IMG/VR virus record: IMGVR_UViG_3300021090_001176
Coordinates: 1-24,563 of that record
From: a virus
Length of the DNA stretch: 24,563 nucleotides
Reading direction: 5' to 3' (one strand)
Shown: positions 1,388 to 22,340 of the stretch, in pieces
Layout of the letters: every line of letters starts with the position of its first letter
Position numbering within the stretch: position 1 is the first letter of the stretch
Translations under genes and position numbers: made by a program
The notes under the pieces: generated by a model
Told to the model about the DNA's origin: nothing
Database searches by the model: none
The model's input: only the letters and a program-made list of their open reading frames with translations

Positions 1388-2930
1388 CACGCTGACGGCG
1401 TTCCAGATTCAGTGCGTGGATCAGGGCTGTGCCTGGCTGGGGTTGAGCGCCGAGGGACAGGCGGCGTTCGAGAGCGAACTGCTGCTTGCCAGCGACCAGG
1501 AGCGGGAACTGCTCATCTGCGCGGTGTCGCCGGTTTATTTCATCATTTGCTACATTTTCATCTATGACGCCCAGGCGCAGGACTGGATTCCGTTTGAATT
1601 ATGGCCGGAGCAGATCGAGGCGCTGATCCTGTTCCATCTGTTCCAATTGACTATCGCGCTCAAGGCGCGGCAGGTGGGGTTGACCTGGCTGGCGCTGGCG
1701 TATGCGCTGTGGCTGATGATGTTCCGTCCCATCGCCACCGTGCTCATTTTTTCGAAACGGGATGATGAGGCCATATACCTGCTCAGCGAAGAGCGGTTGA
1801 AGGGGATGTACGCCCGTCTACCGGAATGGATGCAGACAAAGAACGCGCTCATCGACAGCAAACACCAGTGGAAGCTACGCAACGGCAGCATGGCCTATGC
1901 TTTCCCCACGACGGCAGGAGACAGTTACACGGCGTCACTGGCGATTATGGATGAAGCCGACCTGATGCCCGACCTGAACCGACTGATGCGCTCGGTGAAG
2001 CCGACCATCGACGCAGGTGGCAAGTTGTTCCTGATTAGCCGCGCCAACAAGAGCACCCCCAACAGCGAATTCAAGCGCATCTACCGGGCGGCGAAGGCGG
2101 GCACGAACGGCTGGGCGCACATCTTCCTGTCCTGGTGGGTGAGACCGGCGCGGGATCAGGCGTGGTATGAAGCGCAAAAGAGAGACATCCTGGCGAATAC
2201 AGGAGGATTGGACGCGCTGCACGAGCAGTACCCGGCGACGGATACCGAGGCGCTGGCTCCGGCCAGCCTGGACAAGCGGATTCCGCCGGAGTGGCTGGAA
2301 AATTGTTTCGCGTTCCAACGGGCGCTGTCGGACGAGTCGTTGCCCCAGGGCGCGCCGCGAATCCCAGGCCTGCGGGTGTTCCGCCCGCCGGAGAGGTTCG
2401 GCCATTACGCGGGCGGAGTGGATTGCGCCGAAGGGCTGCCGACCAGTGACGACAGCGCGGCGACCTGGGTGGATACCGCCACCGGCGAGGAAGTCTGCAA
2501 CCTGGTGGGCAAGCTGACGCCGCAGGTGCAGGCGGCCTACTGCGCGCAGGTCTCAACCTGGTACAACGACGCGCCGTTGATGGTGGAGCGCAATAATCAC
2601 GGGCACGCGACCATCGGCTGGCTGCAAGACAACGGGCACGAGCGGCTGATCCTGGACGGGCACGACGGCAGGCCGGGTTGGAACTCGACCACGCTGGGCA
2701 AGGTGCTCATGTATGACGAGGCGGCGGAGACGTTTCGGACCGGGGACACGCAACTGCACGACATCGAGACCCAGGCGCAGCTGGAGGGCATCGAAACGGG
2801 GACGTTGAGAGCGCCGGAGGGCGACATGGATGACCGGGCCGACAGTTACGCGCTGGCGCTGGTGGGACGGCGGGCGGCGATCCAGGCCGGGCAGAGCGTC
2901 GGTTTCCGACAGGGACGGGCACGGTGGTAG
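1365..2930 (+). CDS. phage terminase large subunit (TerL)
   Basis: This is the DNA-packaging motor, 521 residues: an N-terminal ATPase that pumps DNA into the prohead and a C-terminal RNase H-like nuclease that cuts it. The Walker A region is KARQVGLT (100-107), in which the usual GKT is GLT and the lysine lies at the start, a variant seen in some TerL families. Walker B is LAIMDEAD (192-199). Nuclease acidic residues are visible at D353 in GGVDCAEG, E408 in MVERNNHG and D490/D493 in DDRADSYAL. Length and motif order are normal. The start overlaps the small terminase gene, indicating translational coupling. Everything downstream to 3122 is repeat DNA, so the packaging operon probably ends here. 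Confidence 0.95.
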   Translation: MKTATTTNTLTAFQIQCVDQGCAWLGLSAEGQAAFESELLLASDQERELLICAVSPVYFIICYIFIYDAQAQDWIPFELWPEQIEALILFHLFQLTIALKARQVGLTWLALAYALWLMMFRPIATVLIFSKRDDEAIYLLSEERLKGMYARLPEWMQTKNALIDSKHQWKLRNGSMAYAFPTTAGDSYTASLAIMDEADLMPDLNRLMRSVKPTIDAGGKLFLISRANKSTPNSEFKRIYRAAKAGTNGWAHIFLSWWVRPARDQAWYEAQKRDILANTGGLDALHEQYPATDTEALAPASLDKRIPPEWLENCFAFQRALSDESLPQGAPRIPGLRVFRPPERFGHYAGGVDCAEGLPTSDDSAATWVDTATGEEVCNLVGKLTPQVQAAYCAQVSTWYNDAPLMVERNNHGHATIGWLQDNGHERLILDGHDGRPGWNSTTLGKVLMYDEAAETFRTGDTQLHDIETQAQLEGIETGTLRAPEGDMDDRADSYALALVGRRAAIQAGQSVGFRQGRARW

Positions 2931-3738: not shown

Positions 3739-3743
3739 GATGC

Positions 3744-3890
3744 TCCTTACCTTACCTCACCTAGCATCAACGGACCGCACCCGAACAGAGCGTACCCCGC
3801 CTTGCATCGCCATACCCTACCCCCAAAAAAAGTATCCCTACCTCAGCCTGCCTCAGCCAACCTTATCAAGCCGCGACCACACCTTATATG
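3744..3890 (-). repeat. GGYNN pentad array A (5' leader of DUF2442)
   Basis: Read on the minus strand, GGT or a close variant recurs every 5 bp. On the plus strand ACC, GCC or similar trimers fall at 3749, 3754, 3759, 3764 and so on up to 3819 without a phase break. Including the terminal GGA at 3744-3746 this makes 16 units in 78 bp. A run of seven A (plus strand, 3825-3831; T on the array strand) separates it from a second, less regular block at about 3838-3890. The last unit doubles as the ribosome binding site of the DUF2442 gene. The array lies between the predicted minus-strand promoter and the gene, so it should be transcribed as GGYNN RNA. Confidence 0.75.
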
Positions 3891-3893
3891 CCG

Positions 3894-3956
3894 ATTATAC
3901 CATAAACCCATAGCGGAACGTGTGTTCTTGCTTTTCTCTCACACCTATGTTATGCT
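3894..3956. promoter_or_regulatory. divergent promoter with GAAC-N4-GTTC operator
   Basis: Plus strand: TTGCTT (3928-3933), 17-bp spacer, TATGCT (3951-3956), driving the RAMP-like gene. Minus strand: TATAAT at 3899-3894 preceded by TGG (extended -10), with a weak -35 about 17 bp upstream. A perfect palindrome, GAACGTGTGTTC (3916-3927), lies between them. It touches the plus -35 and covers the minus -35 position. GAAC-N4-GTTC matches the Gram-positive type LexA box, so damage-responsive control of both directions is a reasonable guess. Any dyad-binding repressor would fit equally. Confidence 0.6.
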
Positions 3957-4016
3957 GCTTTTTAATGATCGGATATTTTCACCAATTGAAATGTGATAGT
4001 GAAAGGGTGTACCAAA

Positions 4017-4619
4017 ATGTACAAGATCGACGCTATGATACATGGGACGGCTGGCTTATTGCAGCACGCTTTCGGGCAGGCGCAATTGGCCGGGTTGCAG
4101 GAGCGGAGCAGCAAGCGCACCGCGAAGCCGGATTACTCTTTTGAGTGGATGGACACGATGTATACGTCCCCATCCAAGAACGGGAAGACCCTGTTGGTGC
4201 AACCGGCCACGCACATCGAAGGGGCGATGATTAAAGCCGGGACGAATTTCAAAATGCGCGGCAGAATAACCTATAAAGACTCCGTCAAAGGCTTCATTTT
4301 CGTCTCGCCGGACGCGATCCCGCATCTCAGGGATGGTGAAATCGTCGAAGCCCCGGACGAGAGCCTGCTGGAATCGCCCACCGAAAGCATGAGCGTGTCC
4401 ATCATGCGCGTCGTCATCCAACGCTCTGCCGTCGCCCGGTCGCGCTTGCTCATCGCTCCAGGGTGGGAACTGGCGTTCAATATCGCCGTGCAAGATGACG
4501 ATATCAGCGCCGACACGGTGTACAAAATCCTGGAGCATGCCGGGCACAGCATCGGGATCGGCGATTATCGCCCGCGTTATGGCCGGTTCACGATCTCCAA
4601 GTTTGAGGTCGTGGAGTAG
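4017..4619 (+). CDS. uncharacterised phage protein with RAMP/Cas7-like features
   Basis: The 200-residue product has no assigned function that I can name. The N-terminus (MYKIDAMIHGTAGLLQHAF) resembles the first strand and helix of RAMP-fold proteins such as Cas7. The middle (PATHIEGAMIKAGTNFKMRGRITYKDSVKGFIF) suits the insertion of subunits of that kind. The C-terminus (AGHSIGIGDYRPRYGRF) resembles the glycine-rich loop of RAMP proteins (G-x-G, basic residues, then GRF). I believe proteins of this type recur in many phages. The ATG at 4017 is chosen over a GTG at 3993 because GAAAGGGTG precedes it at good spacing and the fold begins there. Its promoter carries a GAAC-N4-GTTC box. It is followed directly by pentad array B, probably in the same transcript. 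The RAMP assignment is tentative. Confidence 0.6.
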   Translation: MYKIDAMIHGTAGLLQHAFGQAQLAGLQERSSKRTAKPDYSFEWMDTMYTSPSKNGKTLLVQPATHIEGAMIKAGTNFKMRGRITYKDSVKGFIFVSPDAIPHLRDGEIVEAPDESLLESPTESMSVSIMRVVIQRSAVARSRLLIAPGWELAFNIAVQDDDISADTVYKILEHAGHSIGIGDYRPRYGRFTISKFEVVE

Positions 4620-4632
4620 GATTCGCTTTTGG

Positions 4633-5015
4633 GGTCAGGCATGGTCAGGCGAGGTAGGGTGATGTCGGGTAGGGCTTGGGCGAGTTTGGCGAGATGTGGT
4701 CCGGTGCGGTCTGTTTTGGTTGAGTCTGGTGAGGTAAGGTTTCCTTTTTACGGTAAGGCATGGTTTGGCGTTGTACGGTGCGCTTCGGTGTGGTTGGACA
4801 GGGTCATGCGTGGTCAGGTAAGGTATGGTTCTTTATTTAGTGGTATGGTGGGGCAAACTGGGGCGCGGTGGGGCGCGGTGATGTAAGGTCGGTTCAGGCG
4901 GGGCATGGAAAGGCAAGGTTTTCTGCTTTGGAGGCGAGGTGTGGCGTGTCGCGGTCTGCTATGGTTCGGTAATGCGGGGTTTGGCAAGATCAGGTCGGGC
5001 GAGGCAAGGTACGGT
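4633..5015 (+). repeat. GGYNN pentad array B
   Basis: For 383 bp a GGT or GGC recurs every 5 bp while the other two positions vary. Examples of unit starts are 4633, 4638, 4643, 4648, 4653, 4658, then 4698, 4703, 4708. T-rich linkers at about 4711-4717, 4741-4751, 4830-4841 and 4920-4932 divide it. Resulting blocks are 4633-4710 (78 bp), a short 4718-4740 piece, 4752-4829 (78 bp), 4842-4919 (78 bp) and 4933-5015 (83 bp). The phase is kept inside each block and slips only at linkers. No long frame with protein-like composition covers it. It lies directly after the RAMP-like gene and before an HNH gene. It is not a CRISPR array, since there are no long identical repeats. Confidence 0.85.
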
Positions 5016-5046
5016 TTCATCAACATGAGCCGAAAGGGGGCACAAG

Positions 5047-5439
5047 ATGCCCAGAAAGCCCTGGTTGGACGCAACATCGGAGCATTATCGCAAGCAGCAG
5101 ATGCGGGTGCTGGTGGCCGCCGATTTCAGATGCCAATTCGCCCAGGCGAAGACATATATCCCCGACACCACGCTTTACGATCCCGACCTGTATGCGCGGA
5201 AGATAGCGGAGTGGCAAAAGGTCAAGCTCACGCCGCTTGAGGGTCAATGCACGGTGGGATGTCCCGAAACGCTACTGCGCAAGTTGCAAGTGCATCACAT
5301 CATCGAGCGGATCAATTTTCTGCCCCATCAAATCGAGGGGCACGATATATCCAACCTGATCGTGGTATGCGCAGCGCATCACGCGCAAATTCACCCGCAC
5401 TTGAGCCGGGAGATTCACGTGCCGCTCAAGACGGTGTGA
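5047..5439 (+). CDS. HNH endonuclease
   Basis: The 130-residue protein carries an HNH nuclease motif: HHIIERI with the catalytic-type His pair, then SNLIVVCAAHHAQIH supplying the Asn and the final His. Cysteines at CTVGC and at VVC may form part of a structural zinc site, but the usual first CxxC is reduced to a single Cys (RCQFAQ). Small HNH proteins next to terminase and portal genes help DNA packaging in HK97-like phages, and others are homing nucleases. The position between TerL and portal favours the packaging role. The ATG at 5047 has AAAGGGGG a few bases upstream. Pentad arrays flank it on both sides. Confidence 0.8.
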   Translation: MPRKPWLDATSEHYRKQQMRVLVAADFRCQFAQAKTYIPDTTLYDPDLYARKIAEWQKVKLTPLEGQCTVGCPETLLRKLQVHHIIERINFLPHQIEGHDISNLIVVCAAHHAQIHPHLSREIHVPLKTV

Positions 5440-5453
5440 GCGTGTTCTTTTGG

Positions 5454-5527
5454 GGTGTGGTGGGATTTGGCCGGTTCATGTGGAGTAGGGTGCGGTAAGT
5501 TTGGGCTGGGTGTGGTAGGGTAAGGGT
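5454..5527 (+). repeat. GGYNN pentad array C
   Basis: Fifteen 5-bp units follow the HNH gene, with GGT, GGC or a one-base variant at 5454, 5459, 5469, 5489, 5494, 5504, 5509, 5514 and 5519, and weaker units in between. A T-rich stretch precedes it (5444-5451) and another follows it (5527-5532). Its length of about 74 bp matches the blocks of arrays A and B. A weaker, poorly phased G-rich stretch at 5624-5674 may be a decayed fourth array. Confidence 0.65.
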
Positions 5528-5557
5528 TTATTCACGGTGAAAACTCGGTGGTGATTT

Positions 5558-5730
5558 ACCCCACCCCGACCCTCCCCATAAATGGAGAGGGGGAAAAACG
5601 GACGGCAAAAATGCCGTCCCTACGGGGTGTTTTGGTGGTTGGGGCGGGGTGGTGATTGGGTTAGGGTTCGGGGTGTTATTCTGATAATAGTAGATTATTA
5701 GAATAGACGGACGCACAGCCGTGCGTCCCT
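5558..5730 (+). repeat. cluster of hairpin repeats and an AT-rich palindrome
   Basis: No gene is visible here. The stretch holds a C-rich hairpin repeat (5558-5593), a GGACGGCA/TGCCGTCC hairpin (5600-5619), an AT-rich palindrome with 11-base arms (5678-5688 and 5694-5704, one G/T exception) and a GGACGCAC/GTGCGTCC hairpin (5709-5728). The last is followed by CCTACTTGC, the same flank found before the promoter at 13856. The AT-rich palindrome could be an operator or a decayed terminator of the preceding transcript. Confidence 0.7.
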
Positions 5731-5831: not shown

Positions 5832-5903
5832 GGGGCTATAGCTCACGGTAGAGCGGTGGGTCAGCACGATCCGCAAGTCCGGGTTCAACTCCCGGTAGCG
5901 CCA
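5832..5903 (+). tRNA. tRNA-like element with abnormal anticodon arm
   Basis: A 72-base cloverleaf can be drawn. The acceptor GGGGCTA pairs with TAGCGCC (one G-G mismatch at pair 3), the D arm is GCTC/GAGC with a GG-containing loop, and the T arm CCGGG-TTCAACT-CCCGG is perfect. The anticodon arm is wrong: GTGGG/TCCGC leaves a 9-base loop (TCAGCACGA) with no proper T33, or else extends to a 7-bp stem with a 5-base loop. CCA is not encoded. It may be a tRNA pseudogene, a tRNA mimic, or the tRNA-derived copy of an attachment site. An amino acid cannot be assigned. Confidence 0.5.
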
Positions 5904-6166: not shown

Positions 6167-8389
6167 ATGAGACAAAAGACCTTATCCCCACACATGAAGG
6201 CGGTGATGTTCCATTTCCGCGAGCACGGCGAGCTGCCGCCCAAAACCCACCGGGGCACGATCAAGGCGCTGCTTAACCGTGAGCTGGTGAAGTTCGACCC
6301 GGTCAAAAAAACCTACGCGCCGGGCGACAAGCTCAAGGACAACGAGATCAAGGAGATGGGCATCTCTGAGATGATCGGCGAGCCGAGAGTCAACAAACTG
6401 GCGACGCAGTGGATCAACCGGGAGTTCGCGCTGACGCCGACGCGGGACTGGGGACAGGCGGATTACACATTCTGGAACCGGGCGCGGTGGGGAAGGGCGC
6501 AAGGGCTGGAACTGGCCGGGCTGTTCCTGAAGCCCCTGGCGTCCAAGATCGCGGCCTGGGCGCTGGGAATGACTCCCGACTTCAAGTTCGACAATCCCAA
6601 AGCGCAAGAGAAGGTGGGCGAGTGGTTCGCCAATCATCACGCCGACGTGCTGAGGGGTTACGAGGAATCGCTCAGCCTGGCCGACATCTACCTGGTGGTC
6701 AACGCTGACCTGTCGATCACGGTCGTGCCGCCCAATGTGGTCGAGCCGATGGTCGATGAAGCCAACGACTACTCAAAACTCATCGGCTGGCGGATCACCG
6801 AGACTCATCCCCATCCCACCCGGCTGCACGACATGATGACCATTACCGACGAATACACCGAAACGGAACGGACGCGCAAGATCAGCAAAAACGGCGCGAC
6901 GATGTCGGTCAAAAGCTATCCTAACCTGATCGGGCGCATCCCGGTGATCCATATCGCCAACAACCGGGGCGTGGACGAGACGTTTGGGCACGCGGAAGGC
7001 GAGGCGCTGCTCACCGCGTTGCAGCAGTACGGGATCATCTTCAGCGCGGCCATCGCCGGGAACAAAAAACAGGGCAGACCGACGCCGGTCATCGAGAAGA
7101 TGGGGACGGTGCAGCAGATCGACGCTTTTTGGGAGCGATTTGGGCATAAAGAGACCCGCGAACTGGAAGACGGCACAACCGAGACCTATTGGGAACTCGA
7201 CCTGGACACCGACAACGTGATTACCCTGGGCGGCGATGCCGTATTCCGGTGGGCGCAGCCGGGCAGCTTCGCCGCAGACGCGACGGCGTTTTTGGGACTG
7301 ATCTTCTACCTGATGCTCCAGCACACGGAAGTGCCGGAGTTCATCTGGGGCAACGCCATCGCCAGCAGCAAGGCCAGCGCGGAATCACAGATGGAGCCGT
7401 TCGTCAAGTTCATCGAGAAAAAACGCGGGGCGTGCCAGTGGCTCAAAGACCTGGCGATGGTCGTGGCCGCCTATCTCTCGATCTGGGAGCGGGGCGTGAG
7501 CGTGAAAGACGAAAGCGCGCTGAGCGTGCAGTGGCCGAATCTGACCCAGGACGACCAACGACTGACGCTGGACGCGATCAAACTGGGACTGGAGCGCGGG
7601 TTGCTCGACGACGAGACCGCGCTATCCCTGATGCCGCTGGATATCGAGAACCCGGCAGAGGTGCTGCAAAAGGTCAAAGACCAGATGGAAGCCCAGCGCG
7701 CCGAGGAAGACGCCCGGCAGGAGGCGCTAATCGCCAGGATAGAGGAACGGCGGGGACAGGCCGGCGACCAGGCTGATGAGGACGAAAACGCGGACGCGGG
7801 CGAGACCGGCGATGGCGTGGACGAAATCTGGACGCGGGCGTTGCGGGTGATCGTCGATGAGCAGGCGCATACCGGGGTCATGGCAGCGCTGAGCATTCCG
7901 CGTGGATTGGCCGACGAATTGTGGCGGGCGGCCAACAACGCCGGAGTGAAGAACATCACCGAGCCGGGGGACATGCACCTGACGCTGGCCTACCTGGGCG
8001 AAGCCTCCGAGATGGAGGTTTCCCGCGAGGAACTGGAGCAACTGGTGCGTAAATATGCCTCCTGGCACTCGCCCTTCACCGGGCGGATGGCCGGGCTGGG
8101 GCGGTTCAAGGCGGATGAAGGGAACGACACCAACGCCTTCTATGCGTCGGTGAACTCGGTGGCGCTGGCCGATTTCCGGCAGGAATTGGTCAGATACCTG
8201 ACAACCAACGGCGTGAAAATCGCCAGGTTCGAGTTCACTCCGCACATCACGGTAGCCTACATCCCGGCGGACGCGCCTACGCCGCACTTCGCCGTGCCGG
8301 ACGCCGAAATCCGGTGGGGCAGCGTCGGGCTGTACTGGGGCGACACGCAGATGCACATCGACCTGACCGAGGAGAAGGCACTGGCATGA
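6167..8389 (+). CDS. portal protein fused to a C-terminal 2H phosphoesterase
   Basis: A 740-residue protein. The first ~500 residues are portal-like: they form the dodecameric vertex through which DNA passes, with a long helical stretch after KKRGACQWLKDLA and a charged helical tail (about 510-545, rich in E, Q and D). After an acidic linker (GQAGDQADEDENADAGETGD) comes an additional domain with the two 2H motifs, HLT at H604-T606 and HIT at H693-T695, about 90 residues apart as in the LigT/2H superfamily. Such domains hydrolyse 2',3'-cyclic or 2'-5' phosphodiesters, and the phage anti-CBASS enzyme Acb1 is one. The length greatly exceeds a normal portal because of this fusion. ATG at 6167 follows CGAGGG. 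The promoter with an operator-like box is just upstream. Confidence 0.85.
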   Translation: MRQKTLSPHMKAVMFHFREHGELPPKTHRGTIKALLNRELVKFDPVKKTYAPGDKLKDNEIKEMGISEMIGEPRVNKLATQWINREFALTPTRDWGQADYTFWNRARWGRAQGLELAGLFLKPLASKIAAWALGMTPDFKFDNPKAQEKVGEWFANHHADVLRGYEESLSLADIYLVVNADLSITVVPPNVVEPMVDEANDYSKLIGWRITETHPHPTRLHDMMTITDEYTETERTRKISKNGATMSVKSYPNLIGRIPVIHIANNRGVDETFGHAEGEALLTALQQYGIIFSAAIAGNKKQGRPTPVIEKMGTVQQIDAFWERFGHKETRELEDGTTETYWELDLDTDNVITLGGDAVFRWAQPGSFAADATAFLGLIFYLMLQHTEVPEFIWGNAIASSKASAESQMEPFVKFIEKKRGACQWLKDLAMVVAAYLSIWERGVSVKDESALSVQWPNLTQDDQRLTLDAIKLGLERGLLDDETALSLMPLDIENPAEVLQKVKDQMEAQRAEEDARQEALIARIEERRGQAGDQADEDENADAGETGDGVDEIWTRALRVIVDEQAHTGVMAALSIPRGLADELWRAANNAGVKNITEPGDMHLTLAYLGEASEMEVSREELEQLVRKYASWHSPFTGRMAGLGRFKADEGNDTNAFYASVNSVALADFRQELVRYLTTNGVKIARFEFTPHITVAYIPADAPTPHFAVPDAEIRWGSVGLYWGDTQMHIDLTEEKALA

Positions 8390-12495: not shown

Positions 12496-13788
12496 ATGGC
12501 GCACATCGGCGGCAGCAAAAATAAGCTCCGATCGCGGATCGAACGTCCATTAACGCGGGATGTCCGGCGTATCTTCCAACCGGCGACAGACCGGATCGGC
12601 GGGGAGCTGCGCCGCGCGTCCAACGTCGATGGCGCGATTGATCCACGCAAGGACGATGACGCGGTGGCCGCCATCGGCGACATCGTGCAACGGCTGTTTG
12701 TGGGACAGAATTTCCGCAGCGCTTATGACCGGGACGGCGTGACGCCCCTGGCCGTGTTTCCCGACCTGCTCAATAAATGGTACGTGCATGTGGTCGCGGC
12801 GGCGGTGACGGTGCACCACGATTACATGAAGCGCAAGCTGCCGGGGAATGTGTTCAGCTGGCTGGCGGGTATGCGCGGGTTTCCATCGCTGGCGGAGACC
12901 TCACCCCACCCCCCAACCCCCTCCCCATACATGGAGAGGGGGGGAACCTCACCCCCGACCCCTCTCCAAAGCAGAGAGGGGAGAAGGGCAATCAGCGAGG
13001 CGCGTAACCCGTTCGCGCGCAGACCGGACGAATCGGACGCGGCGTTCCTGGCGCGGATGGACGACCTGCGCATCTTCCGGCCTAATCCCCTGGCCGAACT
13101 GGACCCCACCCGGCAGTGGGTGCCGATGCACCGGTGGAACGACCCCAACGGCTACCGGCTTTCGGATCGTCTCTGGCAGACGAGCACGTATACGCGGACG
13201 CAGATCGACACGCTGGTGTCCCAGGGCATCCGGGAAGGCTGGTCGGCGCAGACGATTTCGGACGCGGTGGAAGAGTATTTGCTGCCGATAGAGCAGGCGC
13301 GGCGCACGTTCATGCCTTACGGGGAGCGATACATGCCAGGAGGGGCGTCATATTCGGGGATGCGGTTGGCGCGGACGGAGATCGCCAGGGCGGCGAACCA
13401 GGCGGCGTATATCAGCGCGTACCTGAACCCGTATGTGGGCGGGATCGACATCGCCCGGAGCAACACCGGCGACCCAGACTGCCAGGTCTGCCAGGCGCAC
13501 GCGAGCCTCGGTCTGGGCGGCGAACGGGTGCGCGAGCCGTATCCGATGCACTCGATTGCGCTGCCGGTTTATCATAGCCAATGCATGTGTACCGTGATTC
13601 CGGTGGCGATGGATAACCCGCAAACGGTGACGCGGCGATTGCAGGCGATGCACGAGGACGCGCATAGGCGGTATCTCTACGAGCCGAGGGTGATGACCCC
13701 GGCGGCGCGGTTGCAGTTTATCGAAGCGCTGGTGGGGCAGGCGTTGATGCGCTTGCTGCCGCAGGTGGAGCAGATGATACTGCTGTGA
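12496..13788 (+). CDS. MuF-like head morphogenesis protein with inserted repeat
   Basis: A 430-residue protein with the phage Mu F-like domain near the C-terminus: MRLARTEIARAANQAAY (about 288-304), then DPDCQVCQAHASLG and YPMHSIALPVYHSQCMCTVIP, the Cys/His pattern of the family. MuF proteins join the capsid in a few copies and are often carriers of effector domains. None is evident here. Residues of about 135-165 are translated from a C-rich repeat element (12899-12988) that keeps the frame open. The ATG at 12496 lies 3 bp after the zinc-ribbon stop. This ends the portal-proximal operon, and a repeat and a new promoter follow. Confidence 0.8.
   Translation: MAHIGGSKNKLRSRIERPLTRDVRRIFQPATDRIGGELRRASNVDGAIDPRKDDDAVAAIGDIVQRLFVGQNFRSAYDRDGVTPLAVFPDLLNKWYVHVVAAAVTVHHDYMKRKLPGNVFSWLAGMRGFPSLAETSPHPPTPSPYMERGGTSPPTPLQSREGRRAISEARNPFARRPDESDAAFLARMDDLRIFRPNPLAELDPTRQWVPMHRWNDPNGYRLSDRLWQTSTYTRTQIDTLVSQGIREGWSAQTISDAVEEYLLPIEQARRTFMPYGERYMPGGASYSGMRLARTEIARAANQAAYISAYLNPYVGGIDIARSNTGDPDCQVCQAHASLGLGGERVREPYPMHSIALPVYHSQCMCTVIPVAMDNPQTVTRRLQAMHEDAHRRYLYEPRVMTPAARLQFIEALVGQALMRLLPQVEQMILL
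12899..12988 (+). repeat. C-rich hairpin repeat pair inside the MuF-like gene
   Basis: Two tandem C-rich elements, one ending in a CTCCCCATACATGGAGAGGGG-like hairpin and one in CTCTCCAAAGCAGAGAGGGG, lie wholly inside the coding frame. They are read as a proline/serine-rich, charged segment (SPHPPTPSPYMERGG, SPPTPLQSREGR) with no stop. Confidence 0.85.
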
Positions 13789-13889: not shown

Positions 13890-14096
13890 CAATAGGATTG
13901 TCTGACGCGGTCGGACAGCCGTGAGGCGCTACCCGGCGCGGTCGGGGCGGAATATATTCCGAAGGTGCTTCTCTCTACATAGTTGCCTGGCGCGGTCAGG
14001 CAAGTGCTTCACCACAATCAGATAGTTTCCGCGCGGCGGAAGTTTTCCCCTTGAGGCTGGGGCAAAACTTCCGCCGTTTTGCTAAGCGGAGGTTTC
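13890..14096 (+). ncRNA. structured leader RNA, copy 1 (CGCGG pentaloops + attenuator)
   Basis: Four hairpins present an identical CGCGG five-base loop: stems 13900-13905/13911-13916, 13932-13936/13942-13946, 13983-13990/13996-14003 and 14027-14031/14037-14041. A GGAATATATTCC palindrome (13949-13960) and a GAAG/CTTC hairpin sit between them. A 13-bp stem, CGGCGGAAGTTTT (14034-14046) with 14064-14076, plus CCCC/GGGG, ends in TTTT (14077-14080) like a terminator. It shares bases with the fourth CGCGG hairpin, so the two exclude each other. The ribosome site AGCGGAGG follows directly. The layout suggests antitermination or attenuation ahead of the head genes. Confidence 0.75.
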
Positions 14097-15218
14097 ATGA
14101 AACTAAACGGCATCATTTTTGAGACCATCACCCAGTTTGCCGAAGGGTATCCAGAGGTGCCCATCGCTCCCAACGTGGACTACCAGGCGCTGGTAGCCGA
14201 CGACCCGGACCCGGTGTTCATCACGCTGCCTATCGGCCAGGTGGGGGTGGAATCACGCAATGGCCGGACGTATGGCCTGAAAGAAGTCCAGGTCATCGTG
14301 AACACCATCGTGAACGAGAAGTCCATCGGCCAAAAGGGACATCTGAGGGACGAGGAGCGGGGCTATCGCTTCGACATCCCGCCGCTGGTCTGGGTGGGCG
14401 CCACCCTGGAAGCGAACGGGACGGCCTGGGGCAAAGCCTACGTGCTCAAGTCCGCGCCGGATGTCAGAGAATACGTGAAAGTGGCAAAGGCGACGAAGGC
14501 CAAAATCGGTACGTCGATCTACGGCACAGCCGAGATCGAAGACGGCGGAAAAGTCAGCAACCTGGAGATCGAGAGCATCGACATCGCGCATCCTGGCCGT
14601 CTCGGTGTGCCCCAGGCGGCAGCCGTGCCCCAGATCACAACAGAAACCAGTCAAGAGAACGCACAGGAGGACAATCCAGTGCCCACAGAACCAGTAATAA
14701 ACAATACGGTCGTTCAGCCCGTAGCCCAGCCCGCAGTCGAGCCTGCACCGGCGGTACTCGTGGAGATGGAGCGGTTGCACAAGGCGGCCATCCGCGAGTT
14801 GGAAGGCAAAAACGCTGAACTCAAAGGCAAGGCCGACGACCTGGCGCAGATCGTGACCATGCTGGAGGGCGCAACCGACCCGATCAACGCGGTGCGGCTG
14901 CTGAATCAGCACGTGAAGAATCTGCGCAAGGAAAATGGCGACCTGCTGGAAGAAAGCATCAAGGCGCAGGTGGCCGAGGTGGTGAAGGCGCCGAACCTTC
15001 GGGGCATGATCGCCGCAATGGTGCGGGACCGGAAACCGGCCACGCGCAACGCCGTCACCACTGCTTTGCAGATGGTCATGGACGAAGACCACGTCAAAGA
15101 GGCGCTCAAAGACGCGGTGCAGACCACGATGGGGCCGAATCAGAATCGCCCCATCCAGCCACAGACCGAGGGTGAGGGACAAGAACTCATCCACATTCCC
15201 GCAGGAGGGGCTGACTAA
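14097..15218 (+). CDS. prohead protease with C-terminal scaffold
   Basis: A 373-residue protein. Residues 1-175 form a prohead serine protease domain: RTYGLKEVQVIVNTIVNEK, GHL with the likely catalytic H82, VWVGATL, and GTSIYGTA with the likely nucleophile S140, then IESIDIAHPGRLGVP. A proline/valine/glutamine linker (about 180-222) leads into a coiled-coil region (EMERLHKAAIRELEGKNAELKGKADDLAQIV) that should act as scaffold, and a disordered end. Protease-scaffold fusions cleave themselves and the capsid during maturation. The ATG at 14097 has AGCGGAGG upstream. An in-frame TTG at 14079 falls in the leader's terminator-like hairpin and is rejected. Confidence 0.8.
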   Translation: MKLNGIIFETITQFAEGYPEVPIAPNVDYQALVADDPDPVFITLPIGQVGVESRNGRTYGLKEVQVIVNTIVNEKSIGQKGHLRDEERGYRFDIPPLVWVGATLEANGTAWGKAYVLKSAPDVREYVKVAKATKAKIGTSIYGTAEIEDGGKVSNLEIESIDIAHPGRLGVPQAAAVPQITTETSQENAQEDNPVPTEPVINNTVVQPVAQPAVEPAPAVLVEMERLHKAAIRELEGKNAELKGKADDLAQIVTMLEGATDPINAVRLLNQHVKNLRKENGDLLEESIKAQVAEVVKAPNLRGMIAAMVRDRKPATRNAVTTALQMVMDEDHVKEALKDAVQTTMGPNQNRPIQPQTEGEGQELIHIPAGGAD

Positions 15219-20835: not shown

Positions 20836-20938
20836 CCGCCCCACCTCACCCCCAGCCCCTCTCCAAACATGGAGAGGGGAGCAGAACCACGAAGGCACAC
20901 CCCACCCCAGCCCTCCCCATGGCGATGGGGAGGGAGAT
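20836..20938 (+). repeat. two C-rich hairpin repeats with ACGAAGG piece
   Basis: Two C-rich elements (hairpins around CTCTCCAAACATGGAGAGGGG and CCCTCCCCATGGCGATGGGGAGGG) flank an ACCACGAAGGCAC piece like that at 2998. They lie between the chaperone and the converging HNH gene and may act as a two-way stop. Confidence 0.75.
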
Positions 20939-20958: not shown

Positions 20959-21837
20959 TTATCCTTGCTGACGCAGCCAATCGAAGTAGGCTTCAATACG
21001 AGCGATGATCGCTTTTGCCTTCCTGCCCCCAAATCGTTCGATTAACCACTGACGGGGGTCTTTGTTGGATTTTGTCGAATTGCAACGATTACACAGAGGA
21101 ACGATGTTGGTAGCTACCGTCCCTGGGTTGCCTGGGCGAGGGTCGGAGACAGGAATCCAATGGTCGCTATGCTGCTTGACTTCGCCGAACAGGTCTTGAA
21201 GCGAACGCCCACAGACCGCACAACAGTCATGCCAGTAGATGAGCATCCGCCTCATATCTTCATCTGTGAAACTGAACGGGAGACTGTTCTCGCGGGCGCG
21301 ACGCCGGAGTTTCGCCGCGCGATAAACACGCGGAGTTAACAGCCGGAGCAGTTGATTATAGGCTCGGTGTTCCGGCGTCCGGCGTTCTGCGTTGACCTTG
21401 TCCTTGATTCTCGCCCATCGTTTTTTGTCCCTTTCGCTTACCTGTTGAGGGTTCTCTTTCTGCCGGGGATGGGAAAGCCGGTAGATGCGTTTATTCTCCC
21501 TTATCCGCTCGCGATTTGCTTCAACCCATTTTCGACTCCTGGATAGCATGTCAGCGCGATATTCCGGGTCATTCGCGTAACGATCCCGTCTTCTTTCCAG
21601 CATCTCCTGCCGGTTTTTGTAGTAACGCCCGCGACCGAGCGCCAGGCTATATTCATGGTCGGCATAGTAATATTGGAGATGACATTTTTTGCATCTCGCT
21701 GACAACCTTCCCCGATTTCGATTGAAATACTCTGTGGTGGCCGGGAACCACTCATCGCAACCCAGACAGTGTTTTAACCCGTCTCGCTCTTCAGACAAAC
21801 GCTTGGGATTCACACCCTTGCTTCGATTATCACTCAT
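20959..21837 (-). CDS. HNH endonuclease with N-terminal zinc finger
   Basis: A 292-residue protein. The N-terminus has a zinc finger (CLGCDEWFP, then CKKCHLQYYY), followed by a long basic helical region (many R, K, E), and the C-terminus has an HNH nuclease: CCAVCGRSL, HSDHWIPVSDP, then NIVPLCNRCNSTKSN. This is the layout of free-standing homing-type HNH nucleases found in phage genomes. It runs against the tail operon. The start at 21837 overlaps the stop of the upstream gene (ATGA). An ATG four codons earlier is less likely. Confidence 0.85.
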   Translation of the reverse strand: MSDNRSKGVNPKRLSEERDGLKHCLGCDEWFPATTEYFNRNRGRLSARCKKCHLQYYYADHEYSLALGRGRYYKNRQEMLERRRDRYANDPEYRADMLSRSRKWVEANRERIRENKRIYRLSHPRQKENPQQVSERDKKRWARIKDKVNAERRTPEHRAYNQLLRLLTPRVYRAAKLRRRARENSLPFSFTDEDMRRMLIYWHDCCAVCGRSLQDLFGEVKQHSDHWIPVSDPRPGNPGTVATNIVPLCNRCNSTKSNKDPRQWLIERFGGRKAKAIIARIEAYFDWLRQQG

Positions 21838-22163
21838 TCCACGTCCCACCAGGCGCTAAAATACCGCTTCTTCATCTGCCGGATATGAATCACGGGCATC
21901 TCCCCGGCGTCAAACTGGCACTGCCACAGGAATTCGATGACCTCGGCGATGATCTCGCCAGCGCAGGCATCGACGGTGAAGGGGTCGGGCTGCAAGGGGT
22001 CGTCGCCGATCTCCCCGGCGTAATCCCTGGCGGCGTCTTTGACCAGCGCGGCCAGCCTGGGCATGACGTAAGTCGCCATGATGACGTTCAACGCCCGCCT
22101 TCGCGCGGCTCTCTTCTGGGATGCTGATTGAATCGGAACACGTTCTGCGTTATCATTGTTCAT
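21834..22163 (-). CDS. hypothetical protein upstream of the HNH gene
   Basis: A 109-residue protein I do not recognise. The N-terminus is basic (QKRAARRRALNVIM), the middle helical, and the end aromatic (RQMKKRYFSAWWDVE). An N-terminal DNA- or RNA-binding role is possible but not shown. The ATG at 22163 follows CTAGCGAGG at a long spacing. An in-frame ATG at 22199 (MATIDSSEV) is the alternative. It is coupled to the HNH gene by overlap, and the pair has its own promoter at 22249-22277. Confidence 0.6.
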   Translation of the reverse strand: MNNDNAERVPIQSASQKRAARRRALNVIMATYVMPRLAALVKDAARDYAGEIGDDPLQPDPFTVDACAGEIIAEVIEFLWQCQFDAGEMPVIHIRQMKKRYFSAWWDVE

Positions 22164-22277: not shown

Positions 22278-22292
22278 AAATTCTAATATAGA

Positions 22293-22340
22293 ACCCCTCC
22301 CCCTAACCCCCTCCCCATAAATGGAGAGGGGAAGGCAGAT
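22293..22340 (+). repeat. C-rich hairpin repeat
   Basis: A C-rich element with the standard CTCCCCATAAATGGAGAGGGG hairpin, lying between the divergent promoters of the HNH pair and the tape measure gene. Confidence 0.8.

Follow-up and report, generated by a model that had tools for sequence, protein, structure and literature searches.

A GGYNN array in a Chloroflexota-type phage is very probably the vrRNA gene set of a VIPR system

The array of GGY triplets at positions 4633–5017 of the viral DNA analysed here (IMG/VR record IMGVR_UViG_3300021090_001176, 24,563 nucleotides, hereafter the window) is very probably the vrRNA gene set of a VIPR system in a Chloroflexota-type tailed phage, and at least three of its guides appear to be aimed at related phages. 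This assignment is based on the periodicity of the array, the family membership and fold of the Vipr protein, the linkage between vipr and such arrays, and the decoding of guides in codon frame; by analogy with the preprint that describes VIPR (PMC13142463), the tracts would be expected to be transcribed and to form RNPs that bind DNA and repress their targets. What is new here is that, under a 1-nt-skip reading, two guides appear to spell out homologs of the TerL that the phage itself carries, and a third a homolog of one of its head-region proteins.

VIPR (Viral Interference Programmable Repeat), described in 2026 from Escherichia phage SUSP1 and a Pseudomonas fulva prophage, is a proposed ancestor of CRISPR RAMPs (PMC13142463, bioRxiv 2026.04.26.720920). 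It consists of the Vipr protein and vrRNAs of alternating GGY and NN motifs, 9–16 repeats long, in which the NN pair with double-stranded DNA and one target base, usually the wobble base, is skipped per unit; the effect is programmable repression used between competing phages, with guides against competing phages and satellites (PMC13142463). A long, structured and invariable 3' tail belongs to the type II vrRNAs of the SUSP1 clade, other types having varied array architectures, and nuclease vaps occur in VIPR types linked to host defence (PMC13142463).

Periodicity and layout of the GGYNN tracts

Between 4633 and 5017, 32 GGY pairs were counted at a lag of 5, compared with 3.2 ± 1.7 (maximum 9) in 1000 dinucleotide shuffles, and 33 and 31 pairs at lags of 10 and 15; G–G pairs at lag 5 numbered 112 in the array and 71 ± 5 in shuffles. 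Among the 71 array units, position 1 is G in 89%, position 2 is G in 87% and position 3 is Y in 98%, while positions 4 and 5 (NN) are near-free. The four tracts lie on the plus strand. V1 (4633–4742, 22 units, 110 bp, in phase throughout) begins 14 bp past the vipr stop codon and is followed by V2 (4752–4831, 16 units), V3 (4842–4921, 16 units) and V4 (4933–5017, 17 units), with linkers of only 9–11 nt between them, read from the sequence as the T-rich CCTTTTTAC (4743–4751), the T-rich TTTATTTAGT (4832–4841) and TCTGCTTTGGA (4922–4932). V1–V4 carry no structured 3' tail, no fold being better than shuffles; some of the linkers can pair with the last units as small hairpins, without statistical support, and a short hairpin is possible just 3' of V4.

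These counts bear out three features of the original prediction, which was made from the letters alone: GGY every 5 bp, variable bases in the other two positions, and T-rich linkers between tracts. Its fixed block of 78 bp did not hold up, as the tracts have 22, 16, 16 and 17 units, and the first block, placed as ending at 4710, stays in phase to 4742. A fixed 78-bp block is therefore no property of the array, and 16 units is merely a common size. Nor was a conserved block length found in the 120 other listed loci described below, where tracts are mostly 8–17 units long with a long tail.

Three further tracts, together with the protein gene directly upstream of V1, lie outside the region that the original prediction had covered. 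V5 (5454–5528, plus strand, 15 units) is preceded by TTCTTTTGG, and a CTTTTGG element precedes both V1 and V5. V6 (3742–3821, 16 units) and V7 (about 3833–3892, about 8–12 units, phase uncertain) are on the minus strand. Just upstream of V7/V6, an extended −10-like promoter element, TGGTATAAT (3894–3902, minus strand), can be seen in the sequence; it is absent from the list of a simple sigma-70 scan because it has no −35 match.

The gene upstream of the array encodes Vipr

The gene at 4017–4619 (plus strand) is vipr; its product is a small RAMP (Cas7-like) protein of 200 aa with a single domain, as indicated by profile, PHROGs, AlphaFold2 (AF2) and Foldseek results. Its likely start is the ATG at 4017 behind AAAGGG, the listed ORF being 3993–4619. 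The Vipr family profile matched PDB 36pp, 'SUSP1 Vipr protein', with an E value of 2.3e-43, and the window protein as a single sequence did so with 3.6e-7. It also matches phrog_4652 (E 2e-15), annotated in PHROGs as of unknown function, and tblastn links Vipr to Felixounavirus Vipr genes. The AF2 model of the window protein has a pLDDT of 93.6, and the Foldseek matches listed from the PDB are CRISPR subunits of the Cas7 type, including Csm and Cmr, with Csm3/Cas7 at the top (best E 3.4e-8, to Csm; TM 0.54). The family is highly divergent, too much so for alignment-based search. NCBIfam gave no match for the window protein, Pfam gave none for five other family members, and a direct IMG/VR search found no close relatives of the window protein.

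The Vipr match and the preprint's description of GGY/NN vrRNAs therefore identify the window as a VIPR locus. The original prediction had known of no described repeat class of this kind, and a literature search by the letters of the repeat gave no match; the class is nevertheless that of the vrRNAs in the April 2026 preprint (PMC13142463). The further suggestion in the original prediction of a scaffold contacted by an RNP in 5-nt steps fits these vrRNAs and the vipr gene beside them.

The locus resembles the published systems in its Vipr RAMP protein, in the GGY/NN tracts directly beside vipr, in the several vrRNAs around the gene, in its phage carrier and in a 1-nt skip readable at the codon wobble. 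It differs in several respects. V2, V3, V5 and V6 have 15–16 units, but V4 has 17 and V1 has 22, beyond the published 9–16 repeats, and V1 decodes as one 20-unit guide. Where type II vrRNAs have a long structured tail, this locus has short T-rich linkers; this is not decisive for the family, because the tail was shown for the SUSP1 clade and the architecture varies in other types (PMC13142463). No gene of phrog_15946 (family B, see below) was found beside the window vipr, and an HNH-endonuclease-like ORF (5047–5439, plus strand, between V4 and V5; PHROGs HNH matches, best E 1.5e-5) lies inside the array region. From its sequence and position this ORF is possibly a VIPR accessory gene (vap); we rejected it as an established VIPR partner, since no homolog was found beside vipr in the other fetched loci. 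A second HNH or endonuclease VII-like gene is located at 20959–21849 (minus strand).

Like Cas7/Csm3 of class 1 CRISPR systems, Vipr has the RAMP fold, and it would likewise form a protein filament lined with RNA that breaks up the pairing at regular intervals. Spacers are contiguous in those systems, whereas the guides here have a 5-nt period with two read bases, and no repeat-spacer array or cas genes were seen in the window. A tandem-repeat scan of the window found no long direct-repeat array and Rfam no CRISPR RNA family, and Pfam and PHROGs scans, which covered part of the ORFs, found no cas family; on these scans, a CRISPR array was set aside as unlikely.

GGYNN arrays are linked to vipr across phage contigs

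GGYNN arrays turned up in both kinds of genome to which the original prediction had pointed, those of phages and of Chloroflexota. A motif-only scan of IMG/VR with (GGYNN)8GGY found at least 120 contigs with arrays, and the GC content of the 120 listed ones ranges from 0.30 to 0.71. Among the genes that flank the arrays, one family of about 200 aa, phrog_4652, stands out, being present in 92 of the 120 listed contigs and in the window. In 91 of these 93 loci the nearest array and vipr are on the same strand, and in 68 of the 93 the array is less than 100 bp from vipr, where 16% would be expected. Conversely, when 400 Chloroflexota genomes were searched with the Vipr profile and no motif, 12 of the 14 Vipr places found had a GGYNN tract directly after the gene, and the two without a tract are broken fragments.

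Several other features were seen in the survey. GGYNN arrays occur without vipr in the examined stretch of 27 listed loci (L093, L116, L023, L031 and others), in some cases with flanks longer than 3.5 kb, and are possibly stand-alone vrRNA arrays. The longest-scoring array seen, of 1.56 kb, is at L064:7607–9165. A second family, phrog_15946 (...LHxxFxWDDxEAA...), adjoins vipr in 28 listed loci (e.g. L098:910–1377) and is likely a vap gene. Tract junctions often consist of a one-base slip, GGCAGGC, in many loci (e.g. L009 and L011), which may mark vrRNA boundaries. One tract of L106 decodes, with mismatches, onto a gene of weak Noc/ParB resemblance that is flanked by tracts in L106 itself (L106:3731–4414), as if the guide were aimed at another VIPR locus.

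Guides decode onto homologs of the phage's own genes

For decoding, NN were taken as the first two bases of a codon, with the 1-nt skip at the wobble; this yields a degenerate peptide, which was matched to all six frames of the window. V1 decodes over 20 consecutive units onto HLRDEERGYRFDIPPLVWVG (14340–14399, plus strand) in ORF 14079–15218, a head-region gene of phrog_3219, with a score of 72 against a shuffle maximum of 66 (0/4000). A direct IMG/VR search found no close relatives of this ORF. V6 decodes onto IETGTLRAPEGD in TerL (2787–2825, plus strand), a match reached by 8/4000 shuffles for all 16 units and 1/4000 for 13, and the best V6 sites in the TerL of two relatives, L156 and L154, are at the same homologous position (SIEGNTLRAPEGE and SIEGATLRAPEGQ). 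V5 decodes onto the C-terminus of TerL, VGFRQGRARW, and into the stop codon (2898–2930, plus strand); no shuffle in 4000 equalled this for 10 units and 22/4000 did for 11, and its significance thus depends on post hoc trimming at the stop. The three sites are all in the correct codon frame. Each own copy is mismatched to its guide, with 3–5 mismatches per 11 dinucleotides examined, and the guides are therefore most naturally read as having arisen against phages related to this one. V2, V3 and V4 decoded onto nothing known.

The same reading was applied to 745 segments of 11 units taken from the window and the 120 listed loci, each segment being compared with the locus it came from. Moving the skipped base to either of the other two codon positions, in both orientations, gave four control sets of 745. 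At z>5 the NNx reading gave 22 segments, 13 of them sense and 9 antisense, and the four control sets together gave 1; 20 of the 23 distinct decoding matches at z>4.5 are in frame in an ORF. None of the 23 significant own-locus decodings is a perfect self match, though perfect ones would score highest. At the protein level, the population decoding is independent support for the published skip code, and it points to homologs of the carrier phage's own genes as frequent targets of vrRNAs.

The original prediction had raised the possibility that the NN positions match targets, and it is at homologous genes that V1, V5 and V6 agree with it; no exact targets were found in IMG/VR or in 399 Chloroflexota genomes. 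Eight-unit seeds of V6, V1 (second half), V5 and V4 gave 8, 8, 16 and 12 matches in IMG/VR, none of which extended, and the V4, V6 and V2 patterns with up to 3 mismatches gave one match in the 399 genomes, in an ABC-transporter gene, which we judged to be chance. Literal 16-base guide matches among the fetched loci were too few to separate skip rules.

Genomic setting

In two relatives, L155 and L123, the next gene follows directly on TerL (4-bp overlap and 9-bp gap), and neither vipr nor an array is present. The TerL–portal interval of the window, by contrast, spans about 3.2 kb and holds a HicB-like/DUF2442 pair, V7/V6, vipr, V1–V4, the HNH ORF, V5 and a tRNA gene; the packaging region thus carries the VIPR locus as an accessory cargo. 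One contig of a Chloroflexota MAG holds a related TerL (56%), which suggests Chloroflexota as the host phylum.

The tRNA gene (5832–5903, Rfam E 1.1e-6) separates the VIPR cargo from the portal gene, and one ORF (6167–8389) encodes a portal-like protein whose C-terminal part is a 2'-5' RNA ligase domain. Intergenic hairpins of the form CCCTCCCC..ATGG..GGAGAGGGG (REP/MITE-like) recur at 2935–2990, 5555–5597, 12890–12960, 20840–20935 and 22290–22335, and a second hairpin family, GGACGGCAAAAATGCCGTCCCTAC and GACGCACAGCCGTGCGTCCCTAC, occurs at 5600–5625 and 5705–5730.

Alternative explanations

TRAP (trp RNA-binding attenuation protein) sites consist of repeated triplets with 2-nt spacers, an RNA period of 5 nt in which the spacers are free, and the array shares this geometry. 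It could thus be read as a site for a ring-forming, TRAP-type RNA-binding regulator, with NN as mere spacers; however, the linked protein is a RAMP without a TRAP fold and the NN hold decodable information, and we consider this reading, dropped upon the Vipr match, to have almost no chance of being correct. A functionless simple-sequence or G-rich repeat, produced by slippage or mutational bias, has in its favour that G-rich pentamer arrays are common in phage contigs and that a few of the matches (L034 and L050) are plain tandem repeats. Yet NN are near random while GGY is 87–98% kept, the linkage to vipr is strictly on the same strand, and it is only in the NNx frame that the NN decode to real proteins; the linkage and decoding tests refute this explanation, to which we give next to no weight, in agreement with the original prediction, which had argued against slippage. 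A coding repeat was ruled out by broken and frame-inconsistent ORFs across the array, and a hammerhead-interspersed array by the absence of a ribozyme in Rfam.

Within VIPR, the guides might tune the phage's own terL and ORF 14079 instead of attacking rivals, since three of them decode onto genes that the phage carries and many guides elsewhere do likewise. The mismatches in the window's own sites and the lack of any perfect own-locus match speak against such tuning, as does the published targeting of competing phages and satellites (PMC13142463), and we regard it as very unlikely. A distinct VIPR architecture (short linkers, guides of up to 20 read units, an HNH partner) that excludes close kin and avoids self by codon choice is a more tentative proposal, which we think will probably not hold but take more seriously than own-gene tuning. 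The phage's own terL and head-region genes would then be kept mismatched to guides that hit the homologs of close relatives, partly through changes of six-fold-degenerate Leu/Arg codons, which a wobble-blind code would still see; if this is true, VIPR would serve the phage in superinfection exclusion of its close kin.

Proposed mechanism and implications

In the mechanism that we favour, that of a VIPR system directed at related phages, Vipr subunits would line up along the GGYNN transcript, with the protein holding the GGY of each unit. The NN would pair with target DNA as xNNxNN..., the base skipped in each unit usually being a codon wobble, and the bound Vipr–vrRNA would block expression of the target. 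In this way, at least three guides of this phage appear to be directed against competing phages related to it, two at their terL and one at a head-region gene.

The window locus extends VIPR to a Chloroflexota-type phage, and the GGYNN motif alone is an efficient finder of VIPR loci in unannotated DNA. Protein-level reading of guides against the genes of the carrier phage reveals the skip code in action with no need for the target genome, and suggests that many guides target close relatives.
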